The translations under genes were made by a program, and so were the position numbers. Shown one piece after another: positions 1 to 60,436 of a DNA stretch of 64,000 nt (the stretch's first letter is position 1; the number at the start of each line of letters is the position of its first letter). A model generated the notes under the pieces. It saw only the letters and a program-made list of their open reading frames with translations. It was not told where the DNA came from and did no database searches. The DNA comes from a virus: IMG/VR virus record IMGVR_UViG_3300046002_005110, positions 1 to 64,000 of that record; one strand, 5' to 3'.

Positions 1-3000
1 GTGGCACCAGTGGAACCTATTGGTCCAGTTGACCCGGTTAACCCTGATCCAACTAATACCAAAATCAGTGGCAAATTATCAGCAAAATTACTAGTACCAG
101 TACCACCATGTGTATCAATTGTCACCGAAATTGATACGTAATTTGTGTAAAGAGTTGGATCTGCTGAAACAGTCCAACGTTGAAAATTATTACTATTAGA
201 TTCATCTTGAATTACAATAACATCATTTGATTTTATTAATTCTAAAAATACATCAATATCAACACCAAATGATGTTAAATGATTGATATTAATTTGAGTA
301 CTAGTAATTTGAGTTGAATTATCCCAAAGTAAAAATCCAGAACCTGGATTACCACTATACGCTGTAGTTAAAGAGTTATAGTTATAATAACTAGCTGAAC
401 CACCAGTGGGTCCTTGTATGCCAGTACTTCCTGTTAGACCAGTTGCGCCTAATCCAGTTGCGCCTACTAAGCCACTTGCGCCAGTGGCACCAATCTCTCC
501 TTGAATTCCACTAGCACCTGTGGATCCTGTTGCACCAATTTCTCCTTGAATACCACTAGCACCAGTGGCACCAATCTCTCCTTGAATACCACTAGCACCA
601 GTGGCTCCAATTTCTCCCTGAATTCCACTAGCGCCGGTGGCACCAATTTCTCCTTGAATACCACTAGCACCAGTGGCACCAATCTCGCCTTGAATTCCAC
701 TAGCACCAGTGGCACCGGTGGCACCAATTTCTCCCTGAATTCCACTAGCACCAGTTGCGCCATGCTCGCCTTGAATACCACTTGCACCAGTAGCACCAGT
801 AGCACCAATTTCTCCCTGAATTCCACTAGCACCAGTTGCACCAATATTTCCTTGAACTCCACTAGCGCCAGTAGCACCAATTTCTCCCTGAATTCCGCTT
901 GCACCCGTGGCACCAATCTCGCCTTGAATACCACTTGCACCTGTTGCGCCAATCTCGCCTTGAATACCACTAGCACCAGTGGCACCAATTTCTCCCTGAA
1001 TTCCGCTTGCACCTGTTGCGCCAATCTCGCCTTGAATACCACTTGCACCAGTAGCACCAGTAGCACCAATTTCTCCCTGAATTCCACTAGCACCGGTGGC
1101 ACCAATTTCTCCCTGAATACCACTAGCACCAGTGGCTCCAATTTCTCCCTGAATTCCACTTGCACCCGTGGCACCAATCTCTCCCTGAATACCACTTGCA
1201 CCTGTTGCGCCAATCTCGCCTTGTATTCCACTAGCACCAGTCGCTCCTGTTGCACCAGTAGCACCAATCTCACCTTGAATTCCACTAGCGCCTGTGGCAC
1301 CAATATATCCCTGAACACCAGTAGATCCAGTATAGCCTTGTTGTCCGGATAATAGAACTGACCAACTACTAGATGGATCTGATGATGCTGTGCCTCCATA
1401 TCCTAATATATCTAAATAAACTGCAAAACCAAATCCCCCAGCAACTTGTATTAACGTAATTTTACCATAATAGAAAAAAGTACTAGTGATGGTTGTATCA
1501 ACAAAGTTTACAAAATTACCAACAGAGAATGATCCTATGTCCGGAACATAAAAATTGATATTACTTCCGACTAAAGACCCATCAGTAGTAAAAGAAGATG
1601 TTGTGGTCATTGGAGTGAATCCTAGTCCACTAGCGCCTGTATATCCAGTGGCTCCCTGAATACCGCTAGCACCAGTAGCGCCAATTTCTCCTTGAATACC
1701 ACTAGCACCAGTGGCTCCATCTAGTCCACTAGCACCGGTGGCACCTGTTGATCCGAGTCCACTAGCACCCGTGGCACCAATAGGTCCAGTAGCACCAGTA
1801 GCGCCGTCTAAACCACTAGCACCTGTTGCTCCATCTAAACCACTAGCGCCAGTGGCACCAATCTCGCCTTGTATTCCACTAGCGCCAGTGGCACCAATCT
1901 CGCCTTGAATTCCGCTAGCACCTGTGGCACCAATTTCTCCTTGAATTCCGCTAGCACCTGTGGCACCAATGAATCCGCTAGCACCTGTTGCTCCAATATA
2001 TCCTTGAATTCCGCTGGCACCGGTGGCACCGATTTCTCCTTGAATACCACTAGCACCTGTTGCGCCAATATATCCTGATATTGCAGCACCATTAACATAC
2101 AATCCAGTATTATCAACTTTAATTCTTTCACATGTTCCAGTACCAATCAATACAGTATCAGATAAACCTGGAGATGCAGTTATAGTTCCAATAATCGTAT
2201 TATTAGATCCAGTGGTAATATTATAACCAGCATTTAGTCCAATTGCAATGTTATTATTACCACTTGTTATTGAATTTAGTGACTGAAATCCACTAGCAAT
2301 ATTTGATAATCCTGTACCGGTTGTATTACCAGCACAAAAACCTATATATACATTACATAATGTAGTTGTTGTTAGTCCATATATTAGACCTAGACTAGTT
2401 GGGGTTGCGGGAGGGTTTAATATAGTGCCATTAATATATAATCCACTATTATCAACTTTAAGTCTTTCACAGATACCAGCACCCAATAATAAAGTACAAC
2501 TCATTCCTGGAGTACCATTTAATGAGCCTATGATTGTATTGTTAATTCCCGTAGTTACTAATTTTCCTGCCTCAGCACCTATACCAATGTTTATTCCAAT
2601 TGCATTTGCATTATATAATGAACAACATCCAATAGCAATACTATTACTACCAGTTAAGTTACAATATAAAGCACGATATCCACTAACAAAATTATTATTA
2701 CCTGACGAATTATTATTAAGTGATTGACATCCAATAGCAGTGTTATTTGATCCAGATGTATTAGATGACAATGTTTTAAAACCAATGGCAAAATTATTAT
2801 CACCATTAACATTAAAACATAATGCCGCTAATCCTGATCCAAAGTTGTTTGATCCTGTTGTATTTTTGAATAATGAAGCACATCCGATACCAATATTATT
2901 AGATCCAGATGTATTATTTCTAAGAGCACAATGACCCTGACCAAGATTACTAGACCCAGATATATTTGATGATAAACTATAATAACCCTGAGCATTGTTA

Positions 3001-3563: not shown

Positions 3564-3572
3564 TTATCACTG

Positions 3573-3580
3573 TATTTATC
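3573..3580 (-). promoter_or_regulatory. Candidate late promoter GATAAATA for fibre 1
   Basis: TATTTATC on plus reads GATAAATA on minus, 55 bases upstream of the fibre start. It matches the octamer seen before other structural genes here and resembles the T4 late element TATAAATA. Confidence 0.6.
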
Positions 3581-3594
3581 AGTAGACAATAATA

Positions 3595-3620
3595 ATAATA
3601 GCCGAATTCTCGGCTATTAT
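3595..3620 (-). terminator. Hairpin terminator after the fibre-tip gene
   Basis: A 10-bp perfect stem (ATAATAGCCG/CGGCTATTAT) with a 6-base loop lies 114 bases past the stop of the 3734-4105 gene. On minus it is followed by an A/T-rich tail (ATTATTATTG) rather than a pure T-run, so termination may be weak. Confidence 0.5.
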
Positions 3621-3733
3621 GTAATCAATTAGTAATATTATCTGTTAACTTGTAATTTCTATTACTGATTATCAGCTCATACTAACTTTGATTAATCAAA
3701 TCAGTTATTGTAATAAAATTATAATGAAATATT

Positions 3734-4105
3734 TTAAGATGTTGACTCTGAAGGTATTGGTGGTGTTGGAGTTGGATTCCATGGTAGCGGAATGTCGGGA
3801 TTTACCTGCTCTTTAACGGCAAGGATTTGTTTGTTAATTTGGGCGTTAATCCATTCCCAATAACTTGGGTCGGTTTCTATCATCGGTTGCACCCAAGACA
3901 AAACAAGGGCTTGCGTAAGTTGGTCGTAAGGAACAAATGTTGCAGGGTCAATGTCACCGACTGTTAAAGGTGTTGCGCCAATAAAGATTCCTTCATTGCC
4001 CTCTGCGTCAGTACCCGTGCAAGTCCATTTAACATTAATAATGACATTAGTTTCCGATGCAATATTTGCACTTGTCATGCCTGTGACTAACCATGTATAT
4101 TCCAT
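3734..4105 (-). CDS. Small protein downstream of the fibre, possible fibre-assembly factor
   Basis: 123 residues that start directly after the stop of the upstream fibre gene (no gap), so the two are probably translated together. The N-terminus (MEYTWLVTGM) followed by a beta-rich segment, then a Tyr/Trp-containing helical part and a Pro-rich tail, recalls the small proteins placed after receptor-binding fibres in many phages; I believe it belongs to the DUF7936-like group but could not check. Its base composition is GC-richer than the rest of the window and matches the 3' part of the neighbouring fibre, suggesting both were acquired as one cassette. No catalytic motif is visible. A chaperone or tip-associated role is inference. 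Confidence 0.65.
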   Translation of the reverse strand: MEYTWLVTGMTSANIASETNVIINVKWTCTGTDAEGNEGIFIGATPLTVGDIDPATFVPYDQLTQALVLSWVQPMIETDPSYWEWINAQINKQILAVKEQVNPDIPLPWNPTPTPPIPSESTS

Positions 4106-7100
4106 TTAGATTCCTTTAAGCAAAGCGATTTCTGCCTTTAATTGCTCAATAACTTTTTGATGCTCTTGAAGCATAGCCGAAATGGACGGTATCAACCAAG
4201 AGCTATCTACGCCTTGGGGAAATATTGCACCGTCTGAATGCACTCGGTCTTTTTCGCCGTCTACGCATTCTGGTGCATATTCTTGCAATTCATGTGCAAT
4301 AAATCCAACGCTGTTTTTCTTGCCGCCGCATTCTTCCTTCCAATCAAACACACGGGGACGGATAGACATAATTTTATTAACTGCCGCCAAAACATCTAAA
4401 TCACGGATGTTTTCTTTCATTCGATAATCAGACGAAGTGTTGTAGGCTGTAGACCCTCCGGAAGCAATAACTGATCCAGAAACCGTTGCACCACTACTAA
4501 CGGTAAAATATAACGGGATAGACGAACCAGAAGATGACTGTAAAATAATTCCTCGATCAACAGGAAAACCAGCCGAATTTCCTATAATTACAGGAAAAGT
4601 TCCGCTTGGGGCAGCATATCTTTGTGTTTCTTGCACATAAGATTGATTGCCGCCTGTAGCATATGTTTTTAAAGTTTGTCCATTGCTCGCTTGCACTCTA
4701 AAGCCAGTACCAAAATAAGCTACTAATTCTTCCCAATCATCTCCTGCGTTCCATAAATAATGATTAGTATCGCCGTTTGTTCGCAAATACAATCTTTGAT
4801 CGTTCATGCCGATACTGCCAGTCATCGTGCCGCCAGACAACGGCAAGGCAAAGCTACCGTAATTCGCGCTATTTAAATAATAAACCCATGCGCCAAACGA
4901 TCCGTTTTGTACATTTCGTGTTGCTAATCTATTAGCGTTATCTTCCCAACCCCATGCAACCTGTGTACCCCAAGAACTGCTCCCATTTGAATGGCGTTTG
5001 TTTTCATATATCCACCATGTATTTCCGGGGCTATTTGCTAAATTTGCATCATCACCTTGATAACGTCCAGTCCCTGCGGGGGTGTTGTTAAAATCCGTAT
5101 TTAAATTACCGGATGATCCAGTGCGGGCAATTGAATTTGATGAATTAAGACTTGTTGCGCTACCCGCAATATTCATCGACTGACCGCTAATAAACGTAGC
5201 TACGGCCGCCGCTGTTGCAGAGCGATAATAGTTATCCGTCTGTTTTGCTATTATTGCTGTCACGCCAGATGATATAGAATTATCGGTAGAATTAAAATAA
5301 TTGTTAAAGATATAGCCATTGCCGTCACGCTGTACGATTGTGCTTGCTGCCCCTGCTGTAGTGCTTGCAGTTATCGTGGCAGAGTTAGCTTGACTTGTAA
5401 TGGTTGCAGCATTACCACCAATTGATAAAGAAGTTGCAGTTCCAGTTAAGCCCGTGCCAGCACCGCTAAATGAAGTTCCGCTTACAACGCCAGCAGTAGA
5501 AATAGATAAACCTGCCGCACCAGTTGCAAAAGATAGTTGAATCCCGGGCGTTGCCGTTGCATTACTTGCGCCAAAATAAACATAACCACCAGATGAGCTG
5601 TATCTTGACCCAACCGCAAAAGGCTCACTTACCGCAGTAAATAATGATCTTCCTCCTGAACCAGTAAATGTAACCCCTGTATAACTATTTGCCGTATTAA
5701 GAGCGTTGGCTGTTGTTGCTGTTGTCGCAGTGCCTGATACGCTAATTCCCCAAGTGCCGGAAGCGTTGCCGCCCGTGCGGGTAGGTACATCAAGGTTTGT
5801 TCTAGCGTCTGCGGCTGTCGTGGCGTTTGTACCACCGTTAGCAATGGGTAATGTGCCAGACACTTGCGTAGTCAGGCTTACGCCACTTAGCGTACCCCCA
5901 AGAGTTAGATTTCCAGATGTTGTTACTGTACCTGTAAGTGTGATGCCGTTGACTGTTCCTGTACCACCAACGCTTGTAACTGATCCAACTCCAGTTGCAC
6001 CTGTTAATCCGCTTGATCCAGTAGCACCAATCTCACCTTGATTACCAGTTGATCCAGTGGCACCAATATTTCCTTGAACACCGCTAGATCCAGTAGCACC
6101 AATCTCACCTTGAATACCACTAGCACCAGTTGCGCCAATATTTCCTTGAACACCACTTGATCCAGTAGCACCAATCTCACCTTGACTACCACTAGCACCG
6201 GTGGAACCTATTGGTCCAGTAGATCCTGTTAAACCAACACCAACTAATACTAAAATTAATGGGAAATTATCAGCGAAATTAGTAGTACCAGTACCATCTG
6301 AACTATCCAATGTAACTGGAATTTCTATATATGAATTTATATAAAGCGTTGGATCTGCCGAAACTATCCAACGTTGATAATTAGTGCTATTAATCTCATC
6401 TTGAATTATAATAACATCATTTATTTTAATTAAATCTAAGAATACATCAATATCAACACCAGGAGAGGTTGATGTTAAATGACTAACGTTAATTTGAGTA
6501 CTAGTAATTTGAGTTGAATTATTCCATAGTATTAATCCATCACCAGGATTACCACTGTATGCAGTAGTTAAAGAGTTATAGATATAATAACTAGCTGAAC
6601 CACCAGTTGGTCCTTGTATGCCTGTACTTCCTATTAGTCCCGTTGCACCTAATCCAGTTGCACCTGTTAATCCACTATCACCAGTTGCACCAATGTTTCC
6701 TTGAATACCTGTTGATCCAGTGGCACCTATCTCTCCCTGAATTCCGCTAGCACCAGTGGCACCAATATTTCCTTGAATACCCGTTGATCCAGTGGCACCT
6801 ATCTCTCCCTGAATTCCGCTAGCACCGGTTGCACCAATGTTTCCTTGAATGCCAGTTGCGCCAGTAGCACCAATCTCACCTTGATTACCAGTTGATCCAG
6901 TTGCACCAATATTTCCTTGAACTCCGCTTGATCCTGAAGATCCAATATTTCCTTGAATTCCTGTTGCGCCAGTCGCACCAACATTACCAGTTATGCCAGT
7001 TGATCCAACGATACCTAAACCAGTAGCACCTATCAATCCAGTAGCACCAGATAACCCTATTCCAGTACTTCCGGTTAGTCCACTTGATCCAGTTGCACCA

Positions 7101-7327
7101 CCACCAGTTGCGCCAGTAGCACCAATATTTCCTTGAACTCCAGTAGCACCAGTGGCGCCTAAACCAGTAGCGTCACCACCACTAACAACTTGTCCACCTG
7201 GTAGTGAATTATATACTCTTATTGAATTTGAACCTGGATCATACCAAAGACGTCCACACTGACCAACATAATCAGTACCACTAGGAATTCCATTATTTCT
7301 ACTGGTGAAAAACTCTTGAATCGCCAT
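4106..7327 (-). CDS. Collagen-like tail fibre with C-terminal S74 intramolecular chaperone
   Basis: 1073 residues. Order: N-terminal attachment segment (about 1-50, with [16 protein letters not shown]); collagen-like GATG repeats (about 55-230); globular module (about 235-370) shared with the fibre at 1-3518; short collagen run (about 370-445); then a Gly/Ser/Thr/Ala-rich shaft and globular tip (about 446-960); and an S74 chaperone (about 965-1073) starting at SDYRMKENI, whose serine is the expected self-cleavage residue. The C-terminal helix ([18 protein letters not shown]) is typical of S74 trimers. From about base 5990 to the stop the DNA is clearly GC-richer than upstream, suggesting exchange of the receptor-binding part. 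Role: trimeric host-binding fibre. Family assignment is strong; receptor unknown. Confidence 0.88.
6000..6230 (-). repeat. Collagen-like repeat block, fibre 2 (C-terminal run)
   Basis: Gly-X-Y triplets ([24 protein letters not shown]) end abruptly near base 6000, where composition changes and the collagen vocabulary stops. Confidence 0.8.
6600..7170 (-). repeat. Collagen-like repeat block, fibre 2 (N-terminal run)
   Basis: Degenerate 18/36-base units encode [24 protein letters not shown] Gly-X-Y triplets just after the N-terminal attachment segment. Confidence 0.85.
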
Positions 7328-7333
7328 GATGTT

Positions 7334-7708
7334 TTATCCTGCCGGGAAATTTCTTCCGGGTACAAATATACTAGCTAATTCCTTGATTCGTTCAAGAGTT
7401 GAATCACTATCTGATTCAGTAGAGTTTGGATCTACTCGTTTTTCATCATTCTGAACCGCATCTTGTTTTTCAACTTCAGTCGGTTCCTCAGTTGGATCAT
7501 CAGTAGTAGGGCCCTCAGCATCTTTCATGGTGTCTATTTGTTGTTGTAGAGGAGGACTCCACATAGCGTCACCGTCTGACCCATATTGAACACCCGGATT
7601 AACAATTTTTTCAGATTCTTTGGGTTTACTGTCTCCTCCAACAACAAAAACATTCATATTTTGAATGTTAACTGTTGATGCTGGTCCGGTTATGTCTTTG
7701 ATGTTCAT
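7334..7708 (-). CDS. Small acidic protein between two fibre genes, function unknown
   Basis: 124 residues. The first 30 or so (MNIKDITGPASTVNIQNMNV) look folded and beta-rich; the rest is polar and acidic with many Glu, Asp, Ser and Thr and is probably disordered, ending in a short helix (STLERIKELASIFVPG). It lies between two fibre genes on the same strand, 6 bases before the next fibre start and 18 bases after the preceding fibre stop. A late-promoter-like octamer sits only 5 bases upstream of its ATG, so its mRNA would have almost no leader. I do not recognise the family; a virion or fibre-assembly role is suggested only by position. Confidence 0.65.
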   Translation of the reverse strand: MNIKDITGPASTVNIQNMNVFVVGGDSKPKESEKIVNPGVQYGSDGDAMWSPPLQQQIDTMKDAEGPTTDDPTEEPTEVEKQDAVQNDEKRVDPNSTESDSDSTLERIKELASIFVPGRNFPAG

Positions 7709-7712
7709 CTTG

Positions 7713-7720
7713 TATTTATC
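7713..7720 (-). promoter_or_regulatory. Candidate late promoter GATAAATA before the 124-aa gene
   Basis: GATAAATA on minus, in the 18-base gap after the 1204-aa fibre gene and 5 bases before the next ATG. Initiation here would give a nearly leaderless transcript, or one that mainly serves the fibre gene at 4106-7327. Confidence 0.45.
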
Positions 7721-7726
7721 ATTTAA

Positions 7727-11748: not shown

Positions 11749-12696
11749 TTAGTCTAAATCAACAACCCATCCACCAGTTTTAGAATCAAAATTAGCCATT
11801 AACGTATTACCAGATGCAAATGGAGATGAAACTTTCATAACTGGACGTCCATAATTATCTAATGTAATACTACCAGCTTGAACTGTTTTCATACCTAACT
11901 TCTGACCAGTTCCACTATTGATAAAGTTAACTTCAATATCACCACCACTATCTTCATTCAATGATTCATCAATACCAATATATTTCATGAACTTTTCACG
12001 ACTAAAACGCGGATTTTGTTTTTTGAAAATCTCACAGTGATGATTGGCTAATTCTTTACGCTTGCTTTCATCAGGAATTTCTTTGATAAGTTCGGCTACT
12101 TGACGAAAATCTTTACGACTAGCAGCTTCGTTTAACTCATCATCTACACCATTACAGTTATTCCACCATTCAACGGCTTCTTCTGAACTCATACCATATT
12201 CATCTGCATTTGCCACAAAATCTTCTTTCTCCATAGACATTGCTTGATCTTCAAGATACCGCTTCATAGCGCCTTCATCTAAAGTTTGTGAATTATCATT
12301 TTCACTTTTATTTTTCATTTCTTCTCTAGCATAGTCTCTGAGAATTTCTAAGATAGTTTCACCAGCTTCACCAGTGAAAAACATTCCAGCAAAATCACCA
12401 TGTTCTACACCAAGTGCATCTTGAATACTTAGAGCAGCAGCATCAAGTGCATCATTAGCCAATGTTTCTATATCACTACTAGAACCACTGTCTTCAGATA
12501 CTTCTTTGTCATCACCAGTGACTTTATCACCTAACCATCCACCAATGGCAGCACCTGGTAAACCACCTACCATTGATCCAATTGCTCCGCCGGTTAATGC
12601 TCCGCCAATATCTTCATTTAAATTGATTTTTTTACCTTGATCTACTGCTTCAATTAAATTTAGCATTGATCTCATACGTGTTTGATTGTCTAACAT
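11749..12696 (-). CDS. 315-aa protein, possible internal head protein cut by gp21
   Basis: N-terminal 28 residues are helical, followed by a Gly-rich segment (GGALTGGAIGSMVGGLPGAA, about 31-50) of glycine-zipper type, an acidic linker, a helical middle domain (about 75-185), a basic helical domain (about 192-243, containing RKDFRQVAELIKEIPDESKR), and a beta-rich C-terminus. The domain borders carry LNE at residues 26-28, 188-190 and 246-248. T4-type prohead proteases cut after Leu/Ile-X-Glu, so processing inside the prohead is plausible. A late-promoter-like octamer precedes the gene, and it sits in the same strand and region as the head genes. I do not recognise the family; the head-protein idea is inference. 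Confidence 0.7.
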   Translation of the reverse strand: MLDNQTRMRSMLNLIEAVDQGKKINLNEDIGGALTGGAIGSMVGGLPGAAIGGWLGDKVTGDDKEVSEDSGSSSDIETLANDALDAAALSIQDALGVEHGDFAGMFFTGEAGETILEILRDYAREEMKNKSENDNSQTLDEGAMKRYLEDQAMSMEKEDFVANADEYGMSSEEAVEWWNNCNGVDDELNEAASRKDFRQVAELIKEIPDESKRKELANHHCEIFKKQNPRFSREKFMKYIGIDESLNEDSGGDIEVNFINSGTGQKLGMKTVQAGSITLDNYGRPVMKVSSPFASGNTLMANFDSKTGGWVVDLD

Positions 12697-12718
12697 GATA
12701 GTATCCTATATTATACTG

Positions 12719-12726
12719 TATTTATC
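12719..12726 (-). promoter_or_regulatory. Candidate late promoter GATAAATA for the 315-aa gene
   Basis: GATAAATA on minus, 22 bases upstream of the ATG at 12696, followed by a short A/T-rich leader. Confidence 0.6.
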
Positions 12727-12743
12727 ATTTTCTACCATATTTG

Positions 12744-12772
12744 TTGACATTTAATGAATGACAGTGTATATT
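12744..12772 (+). promoter_or_regulatory. Sigma70-type promoter for the HNH gene
   Basis: -35 TTGACA (12744-12749) is perfect, spacer is 17 bases, and -10 TATATT (12767-12772) has one change from consensus. It lies 33 bases before the HNH start and points away from the late genes, so the endonuclease is probably expressed by unmodified host polymerase. Confidence 0.7.
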
Positions 12773-12805
12773 GAAAAGTAATATTAGTAACAGCGAAAGA
12801 TAAAT

Positions 12806-13543
12806 ATGTTCATGAACCAATTTAACAACACAAAATACACACGATGGTACTATAGTATCATCGAAAAACGAGCCATTTTAGATAAAGACTCTCGTGGTGA
12901 AATACACCATATTATCCCACGGAGTCTAGGAGGAGATGATTCACCAGGTAATCTTGTCAAATTAACTGGACATGATCACGCTTGGTGTCATTGGCTTCTA
13001 ACTAAAATGACCGCTGGAGAAAACAGATCAAAAATGATCTATGCTTTCAATATGATGGGTGTTTATGGAGAACATATGGAACGTCAATCATCATATGCTA
13101 TTGTTCGTGCCTATGAGAAGAATCGGTTAGAATGGAGTAAGAATCATAGCGAAAATATGAAAGGACGAGAACCTTGGAATAAAGGTCTTGATATGAAAGA
13201 TGATCCTCGTTGTAAAGGTGGTGTAAAAAATCGTGGTAAAAAACGTGACCCAAAGGCCAGTGAACAGGCTGCAGCCAAACATAGAGGTAGAAAAAATACC
13301 GAAGAAACAAAAAGTAAAATGAGTATGTCTCAAAAAGGAATACCCAAACCCAAAAGTGATGAATTTAGGTCACAAGTAAGTAAAACATTGACAGGCAAAC
13401 CTAAACGAAAAGGTCACGGTGAATCTGTTGCTGCCGCCAATCGTGGTAGAAAAATCATCAACAAGAACGGAATAGAAAAGAGAGCAATCTCAGATGATCT
13501 TCAATCATATCTTGATGATGGTTGGTCATTAGGTCGGCCATGA
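12806..13543 (+). CDS. HNH homing endonuclease with NUMOD3-like DNA-binding repeats
   Basis: 245 residues. The HNH core is at about 32-62: GEIHHIIPRSLGG, then Asn49 and His56/His58/His62. The following part (about 105-225) has basic repeats of the form K-G-x-x-x-x-x-x-S-x-x (MKGREPWNKG, HRGRKNTEETKSKMS, QKGIPKPKSDEFRSQVS, LTGKPKRKG), typical of NUMOD3 modules of homing endonucleases. The ATG at 12806 overlaps a GATAAATA octamer; ATG at 12812 is an alternative start. It is inserted on the opposite strand between the capsid operon and the 315-aa gene, with its own promoter and a terminator behind it. T4 carries segD next to gene 23, so endonuclease genes are known at this place. Its target is likely the matching region in related phages. 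Confidence 0.88.
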   Translation: MFMNQFNNTKYTRWYYSIIEKRAILDKDSRGEIHHIIPRSLGGDDSPGNLVKLTGHDHAWCHWLLTKMTAGENRSKMIYAFNMMGVYGEHMERQSSYAIVRAYEKNRLEWSKNHSENMKGREPWNKGLDMKDDPRCKGGVKNRGKKRDPKASEQAAAKHRGRKNTEETKSKMSMSQKGIPKPKSDEFRSQVSKTLTGKPKRKGHGESVAAANRGRKIINKNGIEKRAISDDLQSYLDDGWSLGRP

Positions 13544-13560
13544 ATGAAGCGATCAGCGTA

Positions 13561-13587
13561 AAAAAGGGACCCGAAGGTCCCTTTTTT
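13561..13587. terminator. Bidirectional rho-independent terminator
   Basis: A-run, GGGACC, loop CGAA, GGTCCC, T-run. The stem is flanked by A5 on one side and T6 on the other, so it can stop transcription of both the HNH gene (+) and the major capsid gene (-), whose ends face each other here. Confidence 0.9.
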
Positions 13588-13606
13588 ATTATCAATACCA
13601 ATAAAA

Positions 13607-14803
13607 TTATTGGAAACTGATGTTGGTTACAGCTATCTCACCGACATAATCAGCAGCATTACCAAAGCTGGATGCTGTGTTTGTAAGCTCGACGTAGCCG
13701 TATCTCGTCATAAACGAAACGACTGGTTCGAATGTCTGTGGATCTAGAACAACACCACTGCTCATTAATGGAATGTATGGGCAATAGAATGCAGCTGCGT
13801 CTGTTTCTGAAGAACCCTTATAACCAACTAGAACTGGTGTTCCACTTGGAGCATATGAGTCAACGAAAACGCGCATTGCGTTGTTCAATGTACCGACTAA
13901 TTTTGTATTAGTAGGTGCTTCGAATGTACCTTCTGTGGTACGGGCGAAAGCTGATGTTGTAGCAGACTGAAGAACAGTCAACATTTCTGAAGAAACAACA
14001 CACCAGTTACCAGCTCCACGACGAGTACGTTGGGCGATTAGGTTAGCAACACGGTTAATTAGAACAGCTAAAGCAGCGTGTTCGTCACCAACGTATGTAG
14101 CAGTACCAGAAACGGTAGCTTGGTTGTATGTATATTCAGTAGCAGCTAACTGACGTAATGAAAGAAGAATTTCTTGGTCAATTTCAGCAGTAATTTCTTG
14201 TGCTAAAGCGGCCATGATTTCGGCTTCAACGTCGATACCATGCATTGATTGTGCGTCTTGAGCAGCTTCGAATGTCCAACGAGCTTGTAACTTACGGCTC
14301 TTGGCTTCAACAGCTTGACGTAGAATCTGAACACTAATTGCTTTTCCGCCGTTACCTTCAAGAGTAGCGGTTGGAGCTGCAGTATAGCTGTATGCTGTAT
14401 TAACATCAGACTTTGTACGTGAATACGCTTGAGCGATCAAGAATGGTGATAGAGCTTCGTCACCAGCCACAACCGAAGTTTGAGCTGCTGAGTCGTCTGT
14501 CAAGTTTTGAGCATAGCGAACACGTAGTGTATGAATCTGTCCAACTGGACCAGTCATTGGTTGAACACCAATTAACTCGTTAGCGATAACAGTAGGCATA
14601 ACACGGCGGATAACTGGAAGAATGACACGGTTTAGTGTGGCAATATTACCAGCGGTTGTAGTTCCAGCATTACTTTCAGAAAGTAGTTGCTTTTTGGTGT
14701 TTTCTAAAATAACACCCATTGATGAGCGGCGGACGCCTTTGAGACCTTCAAGGAGGGCTTCTTTGGTTTCATTCCAGCGGCTCTCTAATAGTACTTTTGA
14801 CAT
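13607..14803 (-). CDS. 23: Major capsid protein gp23
   Basis: 398 residues of the T4 gp23 family: N-terminal helical pro-region followed by a conserved block (AGNIATLNRVILPVIRRVMP, then ANELIGVQPMTGPVGQIHTL). It is shorter than T4 gp23 (521 residues), lacking much of the insertion domain. LSE at residues 41-43, just before a flexible SNAGTTTAGN segment, fits the Leu/Ile-X-Glu cleavage rule of gp21 and is in the right place to release the pro-region. A strong ribosome site (AGGAGA) precedes the ATG. It is last in the head operon, followed by a bidirectional terminator. It forms the hexamers of the shell. No vertex paralogue gp24 is in this window. Confidence 0.95.
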   Translation of the reverse strand: MSKVLLESRWNETKEALLEGLKGVRRSSMGVILENTKKQLLSESNAGTTTAGNIATLNRVILPVIRRVMPTVIANELIGVQPMTGPVGQIHTLRVRYAQNLTDDSAAQTSVVAGDEALSPFLIAQAYSRTKSDVNTAYSYTAAPTATLEGNGGKAISVQILRQAVEAKSRKLQARWTFEAAQDAQSMHGIDVEAEIMAALAQEITAEIDQEILLSLRQLAATEYTYNQATVSGTATYVGDEHAALAVLINRVANLIAQRTRRGAGNWCVVSSEMLTVLQSATTSAFARTTEGTFEAPTNTKLVGTLNNAMRVFVDSYAPSGTPVLVGYKGSSETDAAAFYCPYIPLMSSGVVLDPQTFEPVVSFMTRYGYVELTNTASSFGNAADYVGEIAVTNISFQ

Positions 14804-14832
14804 TTAATTATCTCCTGTTAATAGTATGTCGA

Positions 14833-15936
14833 TTAAAGCCCTGCCAGACGCTTGATATCAATCACGTTATCACGTTCTTGGGTCTCAACTTCTGTTTTCT
14901 TGGCAGATTTATCACCAGTAATTGCTACACTTTCAGAAACCATTTGTTTTTTAGCAACTGGTCTTTGTTCTGTTAATGTATTCAATACTGCTGGTAGATA
15001 CTTGTCGAATGCGCCTTTCAATTTTGGTGTTTGGACGCTTTCTAGTAAGTTCTTCATTACTTGGGCTTTGTCTTCATTTAGTGTTCCGAGTAATTCACTC
15101 ATAGTACGTTCACGAAGGTTACTTTCTTTAATAATGCGAACTTCACGGTTTTTACTTTCTACTAAACGTTGTGATTGTTTAGCATTTTCGATAGATTCAG
15201 CTAATTGTTGATCTTTTTGATCTAAAATTGCAAGAAGTTTACGTGTCTCTGCTTTTTCGTTCAAATGTGTTGAACTAAATTCAGCGGCAAAGGCTTCGAA
15301 CAAACGACGACCGAAAGTGTTTTCATTTGCACTCTTAATGTCTTCTTTCAATTGACTGATTTCGCCTGTTAAATGTGTACTGATTGCTGAACTAACTTTT
15401 TTGGCACTTTCAGCTACAAATTTAGCTTTAAGTGAATCAAGTTGGTGTTTAGCTTCTGCAACTAATTTGACCTTGGCTTCTACTACTGCACGTTTATCAG
15501 TTTCAAATTCTCCAATTTCGCGGGCTAGAGCTGTTACTACGAATTGTTCTAGTTTACCACGAGCTTCCATTTGAACTTTACGATCATTACGTAATTCTTT
15601 GATTTCTTCGGCTAGTTTAGTAACCATAAATTCATTGAATTTTTGTACATTTTCACGTAATTTGACTTGTGCTTTGACACGGTCTTCATTCATTGCTTGT
15701 CTTTCTGTTTGAAATTCTGTAATTTCACCAGTTAGACCTTCAGTAACCATCTTATCAAGGGCTTCTACCATTACGTTCTTGTCATGCTCATATTTCTGTG
15801 CGAATTCCTCACGGAGTTCTGAACGAACTTGTTCGCGAGCTTCGTTTAATTTTACTTCCCATGCCTCATTAATGGCTTGGGCTGTATCTTCAGTAACGAT
15901 TCCGCTTTCAAGTAATGGTTTGATGGCATCAAACAT
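14833..15936 (-). CDS. 22: Prohead core scaffold protein gp22
   Basis: 367 residues, almost all charged helix and probable coiled coil from residue about 15 to 300, with many Glu, Lys, Arg and Gln. The C-terminal tail is VIDIKRLAGL, like the end of gp22-type scaffolds that touches the shell. Several Leu/Ile-X-Glu sites (AINEAW, KLNEAR, HLNEKA, TLNEDK) fit its degradation by gp21 during maturation. A ribosome site AAAGGGGA lies upstream. Its position between gp21 and gp23 is the T4 order. It builds the inner core on which gp23 assembles. Confidence 0.9.
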   Translation of the reverse strand: MFDAIKPLLESGIVTEDTAQAINEAWEVKLNEAREQVRSELREEFAQKYEHDKNVMVEALDKMVTEGLTGEITEFQTERQAMNEDRVKAQVKLRENVQKFNEFMVTKLAEEIKELRNDRKVQMEARGKLEQFVVTALAREIGEFETDKRAVVEAKVKLVAEAKHQLDSLKAKFVAESAKKVSSAISTHLTGEISQLKEDIKSANENTFGRRLFEAFAAEFSSTHLNEKAETRKLLAILDQKDQQLAESIENAKQSQRLVESKNREVRIIKESNLRERTMSELLGTLNEDKAQVMKNLLESVQTPKLKGAFDKYLPAVLNTLTEQRPVAKKQMVSESVAITGDKSAKKTEVETQERDNVIDIKRLAGL

Positions 15937-15947
15937 TGATATCCCCT

Positions 15948-16589
15948 TTAAATTTTTAAGTCCTTGATAAGACGAGTTACCTCTTCTTTCAAGAATTTTT
16001 GGACTTTAGCATCCTTGTCCAAATTTGTACCTTTTAAGTTTTCTAGTACACGATGACCATTTTTCATGTTCATGAGTCCTTCATAGATTGCTTTTGGGTA
16101 TGCATTTGGAGCACTGGGTTGTGCCACGATGTCCACAGTGACTATTTCAAAATCACTGACTTTGCCTGTAGCTTCATCAACGTTACCGCTGCCTCTGCTA
16201 CTAACGCCGAGTTTGACTCCATTCTCTAACATGGTGGCAGCTAACTGTCCCATTGGAGTTGGAATAATTTTTAATTTACCGAAACCATTAGCGCCATCCA
16301 TCCACATTTCTGTGATGATATGACTAACTCTATCTAGATTTATTTTCAAATCATCTGGATGATCGATTTCACCCAATACTGAGTTTCCATTTCGGATTTG
16401 TTCGTTTAAAGTTACAACGGCTTGTTCAATTTCAGGAACGGGGTAAACACGCTCATTTGCGTTCTTCACCCCCCCCTGGATAAAAATTCCTCTCATATAA
16501 AGAGATTTTTTATCACCTTCTTCCTTAACTGATTCGACTATGAGGTTCGCTCTGTCGAATGTTAAGTTCTCTCTAAGATACAAAGCCAT
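15948..16589 (-). CDS. 21: Prohead core protease gp21
   Basis: 213 residues of the T4 prohead serine protease family (herpes assemblin-like fold). The conserved His is in GEIDHP (His77) and the nucleophile in GVSSRGSG (Ser130 or Ser131), with a later acidic stretch VTVDIVAQPSAPNAYP also typical. It cleaves scaffold, core proteins and gp23 after Leu/Ile-X-Glu. Its stop is 11 bases from the gp22 start, in one operon with it. The protein has the family's usual length and all visible key residues, so it should be active. Confidence 0.93.
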   Translation of the reverse strand: MALYLRENLTFDRANLIVESVKEEGDKKSLYMRGIFIQGGVKNANERVYPVPEIEQAVVTLNEQIRNGNSVLGEIDHPDDLKINLDRVSHIITEMWMDGANGFGKLKIIPTPMGQLAATMLENGVKLGVSSRGSGNVDEATGKVSDFEIVTVDIVAQPSAPNAYPKAIYEGLMNMKNGHRVLENLKGTNLDKDAKVQKFLKEEVTRLIKDLKI

Positions 16590-16603
16590 TTATACCTTAT
16601 CCT

Positions 16604-17425
16604 TTAGATTCTACGCTTGGTAGTGCGACGGCTTTCTGGAACCGCACTGCGCTCATTTGTACCACTAGCCTGTGTTTTAGTTGGCTTAGGAGCACTTTCA
16701 CCCTTACCTGAACCGTTGCTAGCATCGCCACCAACTTTGTTCTTGAATGATCCAGCACCTTTAACTTCTGTTTCGCCTTTAGCGCCATAATTTGTTGGCT
16801 TCTTTGGGCTAGTAGGAACTGATTCTGAACTACCACTAAAGTTAACTGGCTTTGATGCCATTCCTTTTTGACCACTGTTAGCGTCTACTGTGCTTTTCTT
16901 TGATGAACCATCGGCTCCGTCAGTATGTGTTACTGAAACCTTTTTTAATTCAACGGCTTCCATAACGTCACTTTCTTCGTCGCCTTCTTCGCTACCAAAT
17001 TCTTCTTCGCCAGCTTCTTCATCACCACCAAATTCTTGTTCAAATTCGGCCATTAATTGATCAAGTTTGTCTTCAAGATCAACAACCCGATCTTCAAGTT
17101 CTTCTTCTTCGTATTCTTCACCTTCTTCGTCACTGTCTAGTTCAACTTCATCGTCAAACTCAACATCGCCATCTTCACCATCAACATCATAGTCACCTTC
17201 AATTTCTTCGTCATCTAGGAATTCATCATCTTCCATCATTCCATCCATGCCTTCTTCTTCAGAAGTAACTTCGTCAACAAAACCACTGGTCATGTCTTCG
17301 TTAATCAGTGATTCATAAATATCGCGTGATTTTTCAACTACGATTTCGTGAAATAATTGTTCCGCTTTCTCATTGTCTTCATTGATAATAAGATCAATAA
17401 GTTTTTCAAATTTTGCTGTAGACAT
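16604..17425 (-). CDS. Acidic prohead core protein (gp68 position)
   Basis: 273 residues in three parts: helical N-terminus (about 1-45, KFEKLIDLIINEDNEKAEQL), extremely acidic middle (about 50-150, runs of Glu and Asp, including a short coiled coil LEDRVVDLEDKLDQLMAEF), and a Ser/Lys/Gly-rich basic tail ending RRTTKRRI. A strong ribosome site AAGGAG precedes the ATG. It lies between gp20 and gp21, where T4 has the core proteins gp67 and gp68. INED motifs near the N-terminus could be gp21 cut sites. Likely a prohead core component, though longer than either T4 protein; homology was not shown. Confidence 0.75.
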   Translation of the reverse strand: MSTAKFEKLIDLIINEDNEKAEQLFHEIVVEKSRDIYESLINEDMTSGFVDEVTSEEEGMDGMMEDDEFLDDEEIEGDYDVDGEDGDVEFDDEVELDSDEEGEEYEEEELEDRVVDLEDKLDQLMAEFEQEFGGDEEAGEEEFGSEEGDEESDVMEAVELKKVSVTHTDGADGSSKKSTVDANSGQKGMASKPVNFSGSSESVPTSPKKPTNYGAKGETEVKGAGSFKNKVGGDASNGSGKGESAPKPTKTQASGTNERSAVPESRRTTKRRI

Positions 17426-58565: not shown

Positions 58566-59486
58566 ATGACTTACGAACAGGGAGGAAGAATTCAGGCAAC
58601 AGACTTTAACGGGTTTGTTAGTACTGGGTCTCCAAATTTAAATAGTTTCTGGTCTACTGGTTCAGAAAGTTTGGGATATGGTCAGACCGCAGTATCCACG
58701 GTCGCTCAAAATTCATTGGTATATGCGCTAAGTTGGGCAAATCTAATAAACGCTATTAATAATTCAGCATTACATCAAGGAACATCAATTACTGCCATAG
58801 ACGTTCCAACTTCAATGGCCGAAATTTCATACGAAAGTACGTTATCATCAAGTTTAACAAGTGTTTATAATAATTCATTAAATGCAGCGGCTGTAGGAAC
58901 TGATATTACTAATAGCGGTACAAGAACCGCCGATTGGGGAACAAATGCATCTATACCTACAGTAAGTAGTGTAATAACTGTAACTTTTGGATCATATGAT
59001 CAGGCTAGATATTTCTTTAATTTGGGCGGTACTATTATTGTTAGTTGTAGTAGAACTGGCGGAGATGGTACTGCAGTGGATCTAACATGGACTCAAATGT
59101 GTACCGATATAGGAACTTTGGGATTACCGGCAGTAAGTACTAGTCAATCGATTGCCGCGGCATCATATACAGGATTAACACAATTTAACGGTACTGGAGA
59201 AACTCCAGATATTTACATACGAAGTGGTTTTTATGATCTCACATCTACCCCACAAATATTATTCAGACAATTTGCGGGAAGTTACTATACTAGTGATAAT
59301 ATTGATATAGAATATAGTTTAAGCGGAAGTGTGGTGACAATTACAGTGACATTCAATGACGGCACACTCAATGCTACAAATATAACGGGTAATTTAACTG
59401 TTACTGCTGTGGCAAGACCTCCATCAACTACTTATATCACTAATAGTTGGGGAACTCCGGTTGTAGCAGTATCGGCTGCAGCCTAA
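58566..59486 (+). CDS. Virion/fibre protein, tandem paralogue A
   Basis: 306 residues. N-terminus MTYEQGGRIQATDFNGFVST, then beta-rich Ser/Thr/Gly stretches, a conserved middle (SYDQARYFFNLGGTIIVSCS, DLTWTQMCTDIGTL) and an end shared with paralogue B (NLTVTAVARPPST, TNSWGTPVVAVSA). Ribosome site CGGAG lies 7 bases upstream and the GATAAATG around the ATG resembles the late octamer. I do not know the family's T4 counterpart; a baseplate or fibre-tip protein is likely from context. Confidence 0.65.
   Translation: MTYEQGGRIQATDFNGFVSTGSPNLNSFWSTGSESLGYGQTAVSTVAQNSLVYALSWANLINAINNSALHQGTSITAIDVPTSMAEISYESTLSSSLTSVYNNSLNAAAVGTDITNSGTRTADWGTNASIPTVSSVITVTFGSYDQARYFFNLGGTIIVSCSRTGGDGTAVDLTWTQMCTDIGTLGLPAVSTSQSIAAASYTGLTQFNGTGETPDIYIRSGFYDLTSTPQILFRQFAGSYYTSDNIDIEYSLSGSVVTITVTFNDGTLNATNITGNLTVTAVARPPSTTYITNSWGTPVVAVSAAA
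59385..59429 (+). repeat. 45-base identity with the next gene (copy A)
   Basis: These 45 bases are identical to 60335-60379 although the two genes around them have diverged. Confidence 0.9.
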
Positions 59487-59506: not shown

Positions 59507-60436
59507 ATGACTTATTCAGCAGCCGGATTAATACAATCAACAGACTTAAACGGATTTGTTAGCACTGGATCTCCAAATTTTAATAATATTTGGAGTATTG
59601 GATCTGGAAATTCCGGCTGGGGCCAGACGGCTGTAAGCACAGTCACTGCTGGAACCGTAGTATCATTCAATCCATGGAACACCTTGATAACAAACATGGC
59701 AAGCGCCGCGGCTCATCAAGGTACTAGTATAACTGCTATAACCGCCCCAGTAGCCGGAAATACAATTGCTTATTTGTCAGCGTTAAGTACAAATTTGACC
59801 AGCATTAATAACGGTAGATTAAATGCCGCGGCAGTTGGAACAGATATAACGACCAGTGCAACCAGAACTGCCAACTGGGGAACTGCGGTTTCAATACCGG
59901 TGGTAACTAGTACCATTACTATTACATTTTCTACTACCGACACCGCTAGATATTTCTTTAATGCGGGCGGCACATTACGAATCAGTTGTAGTAGATCCGC
60001 CGGAACAGGTAACCCACAAGATTTAGCATGGACTCAGTTATGTACTGACATTGGCACATTGGCATTACCTGCAGTTAGCACTGCTCAGACAATCGCGGGT
60101 ACAAGTTACACTGGATTTACAAAAATCGGAGGTGGTGGAACAGCCCCATCAATTTATGTAAGAAATGGATATTATAATTTAACCGGTACTCCTACTACAT
60201 ATTTTCGACAATTTTCCAATACTGGAGTATATACTGGTGATAATCTATCGATGAATCTCAGTGTAAGTTCAAACATTGTTACTATCAGCGTAATATTTAC
60301 AGACGTATCTAGCGGAACAGCAGCCGACACTGTGACGGGTAATTTAACTGTTACTGCTGTGGCAAGACCTCCATCAACTGTTAATATTACTAATAGTTGG
60401 GGAACTCCAACCGTAGCAGTAACAGCACCAGCTTAA
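59507..60436 (+). CDS. Virion/fibre protein, tandem paralogue B
   Basis: 309 residues. Same plan as paralogue A: MTYSAAGLIQSTDLNGFVST, then STTDTARYFFNAGGTLRISC, DLAWTQLCTDIGTL, and the nearly identical end (NLTVTAVARPPST, TNSWGTPTVAV). Ribosome site AAGGAA lies upstream, and GATAAATG overlaps the ATG as in A. The pair arose by tandem duplication; the divergent middle parts may bind different ligands, which is inference. Confidence 0.65.
   Translation: MTYSAAGLIQSTDLNGFVSTGSPNFNNIWSIGSGNSGWGQTAVSTVTAGTVVSFNPWNTLITNMASAAAHQGTSITAITAPVAGNTIAYLSALSTNLTSINNGRLNAAAVGTDITTSATRTANWGTAVSIPVVTSTITITFSTTDTARYFFNAGGTLRISCSRSAGTGNPQDLAWTQLCTDIGTLALPAVSTAQTIAGTSYTGFTKIGGGGTAPSIYVRNGYYNLTGTPTTYFRQFSNTGVYTGDNLSMNLSVSSNIVTISVIFTDVSSGTAADTVTGNLTVTAVARPPSTVNITNSWGTPTVAVTAPA
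60335..60379 (+). repeat. 45-base identity with the preceding gene (copy B)
   Basis: Identical to 59385-59429; suggests gene conversion or a conserved recombination patch at the 3' ends. Confidence 0.9.

Follow-up and report, generated by a model that had tools for sequence, protein, structure and literature searches.

An extra fibre cassette with a mosaic tip of foreign codon usage in an uncultured T4-like phage

Gene content and layout of the fibre locus

The window analysed here covers the first 64 kb of an 80,942-base IMG/VR record (IMGVR_UViG_3300046002_005110), with the gene content of a large T4-like myophage. Its capsid protein shares 66% identity, over 98–100%, with those of PA5oct-like Pseudomonas jumbo phages and Sinorhizobium phage Phosso; the window is part of an uncultured T4-like phage, and these jumbo phages are its nearest named relatives by capsid. 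They have T4-type structural genes in common with the window phage, but their hosts and fibres are unlike its own. All contigs compared below are metagenomic fragments. Behind the capsid gene, on the opposite strand, lies an HNH homing-endonuclease-like gene (12806–13543) that the relatives L095 and L097 retain with divergent C-termini; the sister phage has another endonuclease-like gene (L097:4056–4757). Elsewhere in the phage, a run of consecutive genes with radical-SAM-like products (CxxxCxxC-type motifs; L086:580–11320, G000 63579–74319) stands near glycosyltransferase-like and carbamoyltransferase-like genes. Such a run is unusual in a phage and is possibly a surface- or peptide-modification locus.

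The genes for fibres A and C are separated by a cassette of three genes, of which the second encodes a further fibre, fibre B (Table 1). The decamer TGATAAATAC that precedes the cassette occurs three times in the window (0.5 expected), each time with a gene downstream, and from its resemblance to the T4 type we take it to be a late promoter. Behind the last gene is the one terminator-like hairpin of the region, where 3.4 were expected by chance; because this count is not above chance, the hairpin is weak evidence when taken alone. The first gene matched no Pfam or PHROG family, and both it and the fibre B N-terminus, used as probes for relatives, found matches in same-species contigs only.

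Table 1. Positions of the fibre B cassette and its parts in the window.
Feature	Position	Strand	Evidence or remark
Whole cassette (gene 7334–7708, fibre B, DUF7936 gene, terminator-like hairpin)	3595..7724	-	Absent from sister phages
TGATAAATAC, T4-type late-promoter-like motif, between fibre A stop and gene 7334–7708	7712..7721	-	Putative promoter
First cassette gene, 124-aa product of unknown function	7334..7708	-	ORF
Fibre B, 1073 aa: N-terminus, collagen stalk, putative receptor-binding tip	4106..7327	-	Pfam Collagen 4.1e-29, Peptidase_S74 1.3e-12
Fibre B N-terminal 52 residues, probable attachment part	7172..7327	-	
Collagen stretch 1	6605..7171	-	GC 0.478, GC3 0.15
AT-rich globular insert in stalk, fibre B residues 242–364	6236..6604	-	GC 0.298, GC3 0.12
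Collagen stretch 2	5987..6235	-	GC 0.470, GC3 0.11
Tip, fibre B residues 448–1073 (626 residues), mosaic, putative receptor-binding part	4109..5986	-	GC3 0.31
Entry motif ('TSVGGTG'-containing, 35 residues), common to fibres with different stalks	5882..5986	-	77% identical in L081
Probable knob-like beta domain, tip residues 276–395	4802..5161	-	Alignment 28–67% identity; AF2 pLDDT 71.8
Exit block, tip residues 461–626, holds Peptidase_S74 (Pfam match 4262–4432)	4109..4606	-	64% aa to L081
Small putative partner gene, DUF7936 (PF25590), 123 aa	3734..4105	-	Pfam 1.5e-14
Terminator-like hairpin behind DUF7936 gene	3595..3620	-	
Second TGATAAATAC, upstream of fibre C	3572..3581	-	Sister phage has it too
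Paralogous globular insert within fibre C	48..404	-	77% identity to fibre B insert

Fibre B is a collagen-like fibre: its stalk contains Gly-X-Y repeats (PF01391) in two stretches, on either side of a globular insert, and the final triplets end at about 5987. The tip that follows terminates in a Peptidase_S74 domain (PF13884; tip residues 519–575 of 626, 49.6 bits against a gathering score of 22, Pfam 4.9e-13) with a DYRMKEN motif. In this C-terminal domain and motif fibre B is like the Peptidase_S74/endosialidase-type fibres, to which the window adds a DUF7936 gene and a collagen stalk with a globular insert. The fibre stop adjoins the start codon of the small gene, which matches DUF7936 with 55.0 bits (gathering score 27) over positions 3–103 of 103. 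A sequence search of solved structures gave no relevant match for either the tip or DUF7936. The model of tip residues 276–395 has a non-significant Foldseek resemblance to the phage tailspike 6eu4 and the R-pyocin fibres 6cl5 and 6cl6; 6cl5, 6ct8 and 6cl6 are among its top 15 matches, with E values of 1.2–2.0.

Composition and descent of the stalk and the tip

The original prediction for this locus was of an AT-rich collagen fibre onto which a GC-richer tip had been grafted together with the small gene behind it, the composition switching just after the last collagen triplet. The counts on which it was based are exact (15 G/C of 60 at 6361–6420 and 36 of 60 at 5761–5820). The first of these segments, however, belongs to the globular insert and not to the collagen, and the second is near the richest 60-mer of the tip. 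Counts per 60 bases range from 23 to 32 in the collagen stretches and from 16 to 37 in the tip, and overall the collagen is slightly richer (47–48% G+C vs 44.5%) because codons of the Gly-Ala-Thr type are G/C-rich at their first two positions. Since the collagen is as G+C-rich as the tip, total G+C cannot carry an argument for transfer, and with no rise at the collagen/tip border it was rejected as a signal.

Third codon positions do mark a switch. GC3 is low in all three parts of the stalk and then lies between 0.28 and 0.36 throughout the tip, with a change point at codon 476 (bootstrap 437–584), that is, at about 5900 in the window; a change as strong was seen in 0 of 2000 permutations (p<0.0005). 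The predicted switch is real in GC3, though not in total G+C, and the small gene shares the composition of the tip, as had been proposed (GC 0.427, GC3 0.35). Against an expectation from codon usage elsewhere in the window, matched for amino-acid composition, GC3 was raised in the tip (observed 0.296, expected 0.162, z=9.1) and in the small gene (0.298 vs 0.158, z=4.1), while the stalk was close to expectation (0.129 vs 0.155, z=-1.5). GC3 is also raised in the capsid gene, the prohead protease gene and the gene at 59507–60436, and 4 of 127 blocks in the window exceed z=3.8; the tip is the longest such stretch, none other being as long. The gene at 59507–60436 is a structural-looking near-duplicate of 58566–59486, and its z of 4.4 compares with 1.8 in that copy.

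The codons that account for the high GC3 of the tip are not those of the capsid gene. Phe is encoded by TTT in 20 of 20 cases in the tip vs TTC in 8 of 10 in the capsid gene (p=8e-6), Tyr by TAT at a frequency of 0.87, and CCC (0.40) and GGC (0.33) are frequent in the tip against 0.03–0.04 in the two largest structural genes; ACG is raised as well. Expression bias is therefore a poor explanation of the tip's GC3 and was rejected on this pattern. In likelihood per codon, the stalk fits best with its own phage (-0.956) and the sister phage (-0.953), whereas the tip scores -1.179 on contigs such as L081 vs -1.267 on its own phage, and the small gene -1.066 vs -1.174. Tip and small gene fit best with contigs of 40–46% G+C and poorly with those of 55% or more, so the high-GC host that had been suggested as their source is not needed. 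These data support a codon usage of the tip and small gene that is foreign to the phage. The two differ in Asp codons (GAC in 6 of 6 in the small gene vs 5 of 22 in the tip), a point against the reading favoured below. In fibre D of the same phage (L085:6273–15809), GC3 is 0.23–0.36 in the distal part (residues ~1600–3000) vs 0.12–0.18 in most of the proximal part; the distal part is a possible second imported tip.

The stalk has a different history. Collagen and insert together are 72% identical to the fibre C stalk of the same phage, and the insert alone reaches 77%; judged by this resemblance, the stalk of fibre B is home stock, a diverged copy of its neighbour's. As the original prediction had suggested looking for, different tips follow the same stalk type, both in fibre C and in the more distant contig L092, which has the same insert at 54% identity, then a quite different tip and no DUF7936.

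Within the tip, the nearest relative changes from segment to segment: residues 1–50 are closest to L004 (85%; 79% in L070/L074), 51–100 to L051/L049, 226–275 to L023/L016/L011 (82%), 276–375 to L073/L004, 376–450 to L019/L036 and 451–626 to L081/L082. The tip therefore did not arrive as one piece, and rather than one intact module from a single donor we found a mosaic; no single donor was detected. The match to L081, the stalk of which is non-collagen, is limited to the entry motif (1–35, 77%) and the exit block (461–625, 64%), with unrelated sequence between them. At the DNA level, L081/L082 match only window positions 3759–4563 (68.6% identity), a stretch that crosses the fibre stop into the DUF7936 gene. 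The proposal that tip and small gene were exchanged as one unit thus holds for the S74 end and DUF7936, which form one block with L081/L082, and fails for the rest of the tip. L081/L082 were the only relatives of the exit block found, and have 38–40% G+C. A DNA search of the phage collection with the tip gave no match. Among genome contigs, one relative of the tip was detected, in Limnobacter sp. P1 (L087, NZ_JARFJD010000032.1; 56% over part of the tip, without DUF7936); the gene, one for a fibre, lies in a phage-like part of that contig and gives a hint of the hosts among which such tip domains move.

Linkage of DUF7936 to S74-ended fibres

The open-access literature searched contained no paper on the family of the small gene. 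L081/L082 carry a gene 69–70% identical to it behind their fibre, and DUF7936 is present in 50 of the 79 records searched, a set assembled almost wholly from carriers of tip relatives. It is adjacent (-10 to +70 nt) to 28 of 52 S74-ended ORFs but to only 3 of the 158 other long ORFs (Fisher p=2e-17). The contrast is internal to these loci, which an S74-containing query had retrieved, and the 54% should not be read as a rate for the population. Tandem pairs of DUF7936 genes are common among these loci. One such pair occurs in the window phage itself, beyond base 1 of the window (L085:15979–16302 and 16307–16729), between fibre D (3178 aa) and a LamG-like gene; it is missing there in the sister phage. 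Among annotated public genomes, ctah5458, DSL-LC02, MA10 and S-N03 have DUF7936 in a fibre cluster, and tblastn with the window's small gene found none in the PA5oct-like and Phosso-like phages.

An AlphaFold model of the DUF7936 protein consists of three strands and two helices (pLDDT 89.6). Its significant fold matches are only to DUF7936 or unnamed viral proteins, the named BFVD matches at E<=0.001 being DUF7936 proteins; a PDB fold search found no match at E<=0.1, and weak matches to unrelated proteins such as RNase T (E>0.1) were discarded as noise.

A related arrangement has been described in the Alteromonas phages A5, V22 and P24, in which a host-recognition module of tail fibre and cognate chaperone is shared across distant phage families (PMC10579305). 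Here too, otherwise dissimilar phages have a fibre part and its following small gene in common: the window phage and L081/L082 share the S74 block and DUF7936. The Alteromonas fibre has a knob-type domain, to which the probable knob-like domain of fibre B may correspond, and the small partner of the Alteromonas module has been proposed as a chaperone or transient cap (PMC10579305). That partner resembles intramolecular chaperone domains, whereas the window fibre has its own S74 domain in addition to DUF7936, the model of which is without a PDB match. By position and by analogy with the A5/V22 module, DUF7936 may act as a chaperone, cap or accessory adhesin.

DUF7936 is the most likely partner of S74-ended fibres. 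It may instead be a neighbour by habit, such as a small gene of structural or lysis-region type found behind fibre operons without serving the tip, and we give this perhaps one chance in four. Its position between fibre and holin in ctah5458, its place a few genes behind the fibre in S-N03 and MA10 and its frequent occurrence as a tandem pair would suit such a gene. A Mantel test of DUF7936 against tip ends is no help to the partner role either: the correlation (r 0.37–0.43) is equalled by the region further upstream, and therefore reflects relatedness, not specific matching. Against a mere neighbour stand the excess behind S74-ended ORFs and the spacing, since in many unrelated contigs the DUF7936 start usually falls -4 to +38 nt from the S74 fibre stop. 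A wider proposal is tentative, and we hold it somewhat less probable than its opposite: DUF7936 would be widespread as an uncharacterised partner dedicated to S74-chaperoned fibres, whether as tip cap, as assembly factor or as accessory adhesin, and the conserved 'TSVGGTG' entry motif and the S74/DUF7936 exit block would be the two joints of an exchange system that plugs varied binding domains onto different stalks in aquatic phages.

The cassette site in relatives and the origin of fibre B

Two contigs, L001 and L002, carry the same fibre as the window; being of the same species (99.8% over 14 kb), they were rejected as independent relatives, and their identical tip tests nothing. A probe from gene 11749–12696 retrieved the sister phages L096–L102, which have 98% identical capsids, 94–96% DNA identity in the probe region and the same gene order up to fibre A. 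In L097, fibre A (12246–15749) is followed by 173 bp and then by fibre C (15923), and gene 7334–7708, fibre B and the DUF7936 gene are lacking between them. Nowhere on a 109 kb sister contig was there a match to PF25590 or to the tip; all that fibre B matches there is other collagen, plus a faint resemblance to an S74 end. The outgroup L121 (capsid 94% aa, fibre A 48%), with an otherwise different fibre region, has other fibre genes at the site and neither fibre B nor DUF7936. Fibre B is hence absent from all close relatives found except the two same-species contigs, the opposite of what would have spoken against the original prediction, a tip common to all close relatives. Because the sister contigs look like one species, the comparison amounts to a single sister and a single outgroup. 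Fibres C and D of the window species (L085) correspond to one giant ORF in the sister (L116 + L143), which starts like fibre C and ends like fibre D.

As the whole cassette is missing in relatives, more than a tip was gained (or lost), and the idea that only the tip had been exchanged on a resident fibre fails on the absence of the entire fibre and both flanking genes. The simplest reading is gain of the whole cassette in the window lineage; loss is possible, and the direction is our inference. We put the probability at about two in three that an extra fibre cassette, with a home-stock stalk and a mosaic tip and DUF7936 gene from outside, was gained between the resident fibres A and C. With its three genes would have come a late-promoter-like motif and a terminator-like hairpin of its own. 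The collagen stalk and insert would come from the phage's own stock, as a copy of the fibre C stalk, and the tip and small gene from a shared pool of aquatic-phage fibre modules of ~40–46% G+C, the tip pre-assembled from several modules between the common entry motif and the S74 + DUF7936 exit block. Three chains would form the fibre; the S74 domain is predicted to act as an intramolecular chaperone and then to be cut off, and DUF7936, as a putative small dedicated partner, may help the tip fold, cap it or stay on it. The extra fibre would add a receptor specificity.

The best of the competing accounts, to which we give roughly one chance in five, is that the cassette is ancestral, that the sister lineage and the outgroup lost or replaced it, and that the GC3 difference between stalk and tip is old. 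Fibre loci are readily gained and lost, the sister also differs in its fibre C/D layout and is without the DUF7936 pair, and the state of L121, with its different fibre genes at the site, is not strictly informative. Nevertheless, two losses would be required vs one gain, the tip's codon usage is unadapted to the phage although that of the stalk is adapted, and the 173 bp between fibres A and C of the sister hold no cassette remnant and are not explained by a simple deletion between the two TGATAAATAC motifs. Less probable again is the exchange originally predicted, in which the phage of a high-GC host would have supplied tip and small gene together to a collagen fibre already in place. It would account for the foreign codon usage of both parts, for the contiguous S74 + DUF7936 block common to L081/L082 and for the other tips on the same stalk type, but in simple form it is largely refuted by the absence of the whole fibre in relatives, by the different nearest relatives of the tip segments and by the G+C of 40–46% in the contigs with the best codon fit and of 38–40% in the exit-block relatives. 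That nothing was transferred and codon selection, for expression or cotranslational folding, raised GC3 in the tip and small gene is very improbable: capsid and prohead protease genes are also GC3-raised, but the codon pattern of the tip is unlike that of the capsid gene, the stalk on the same mRNA is unaffected and segments of the tip are related at the DNA level to other phages.

That phages exchange receptor-binding modules together with partner genes is already well known (PMC10579305, PMC10684548), and mosaic receptor-binding proteins have been surveyed in which tail-fibre domains have separate histories, recent cross-family exchange included (PMC10684548). Compared with that survey, the window combines two signs, a complete cassette apparently gained with respect to a near relative and an intragenic scar in codon usage. 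New are the fibre B instance with its empty site and the S74–DUF7936 link, which is unnamed in the literature searched. Fibre B offers a natural case in which a single gene joins a home-made stalk to what appears to be an imported tip, with the empty cassette site visible in a 94–96% identical relative, and the pairing of DUF7936 with S74 fibres provides a testable link to an unstudied protein family.
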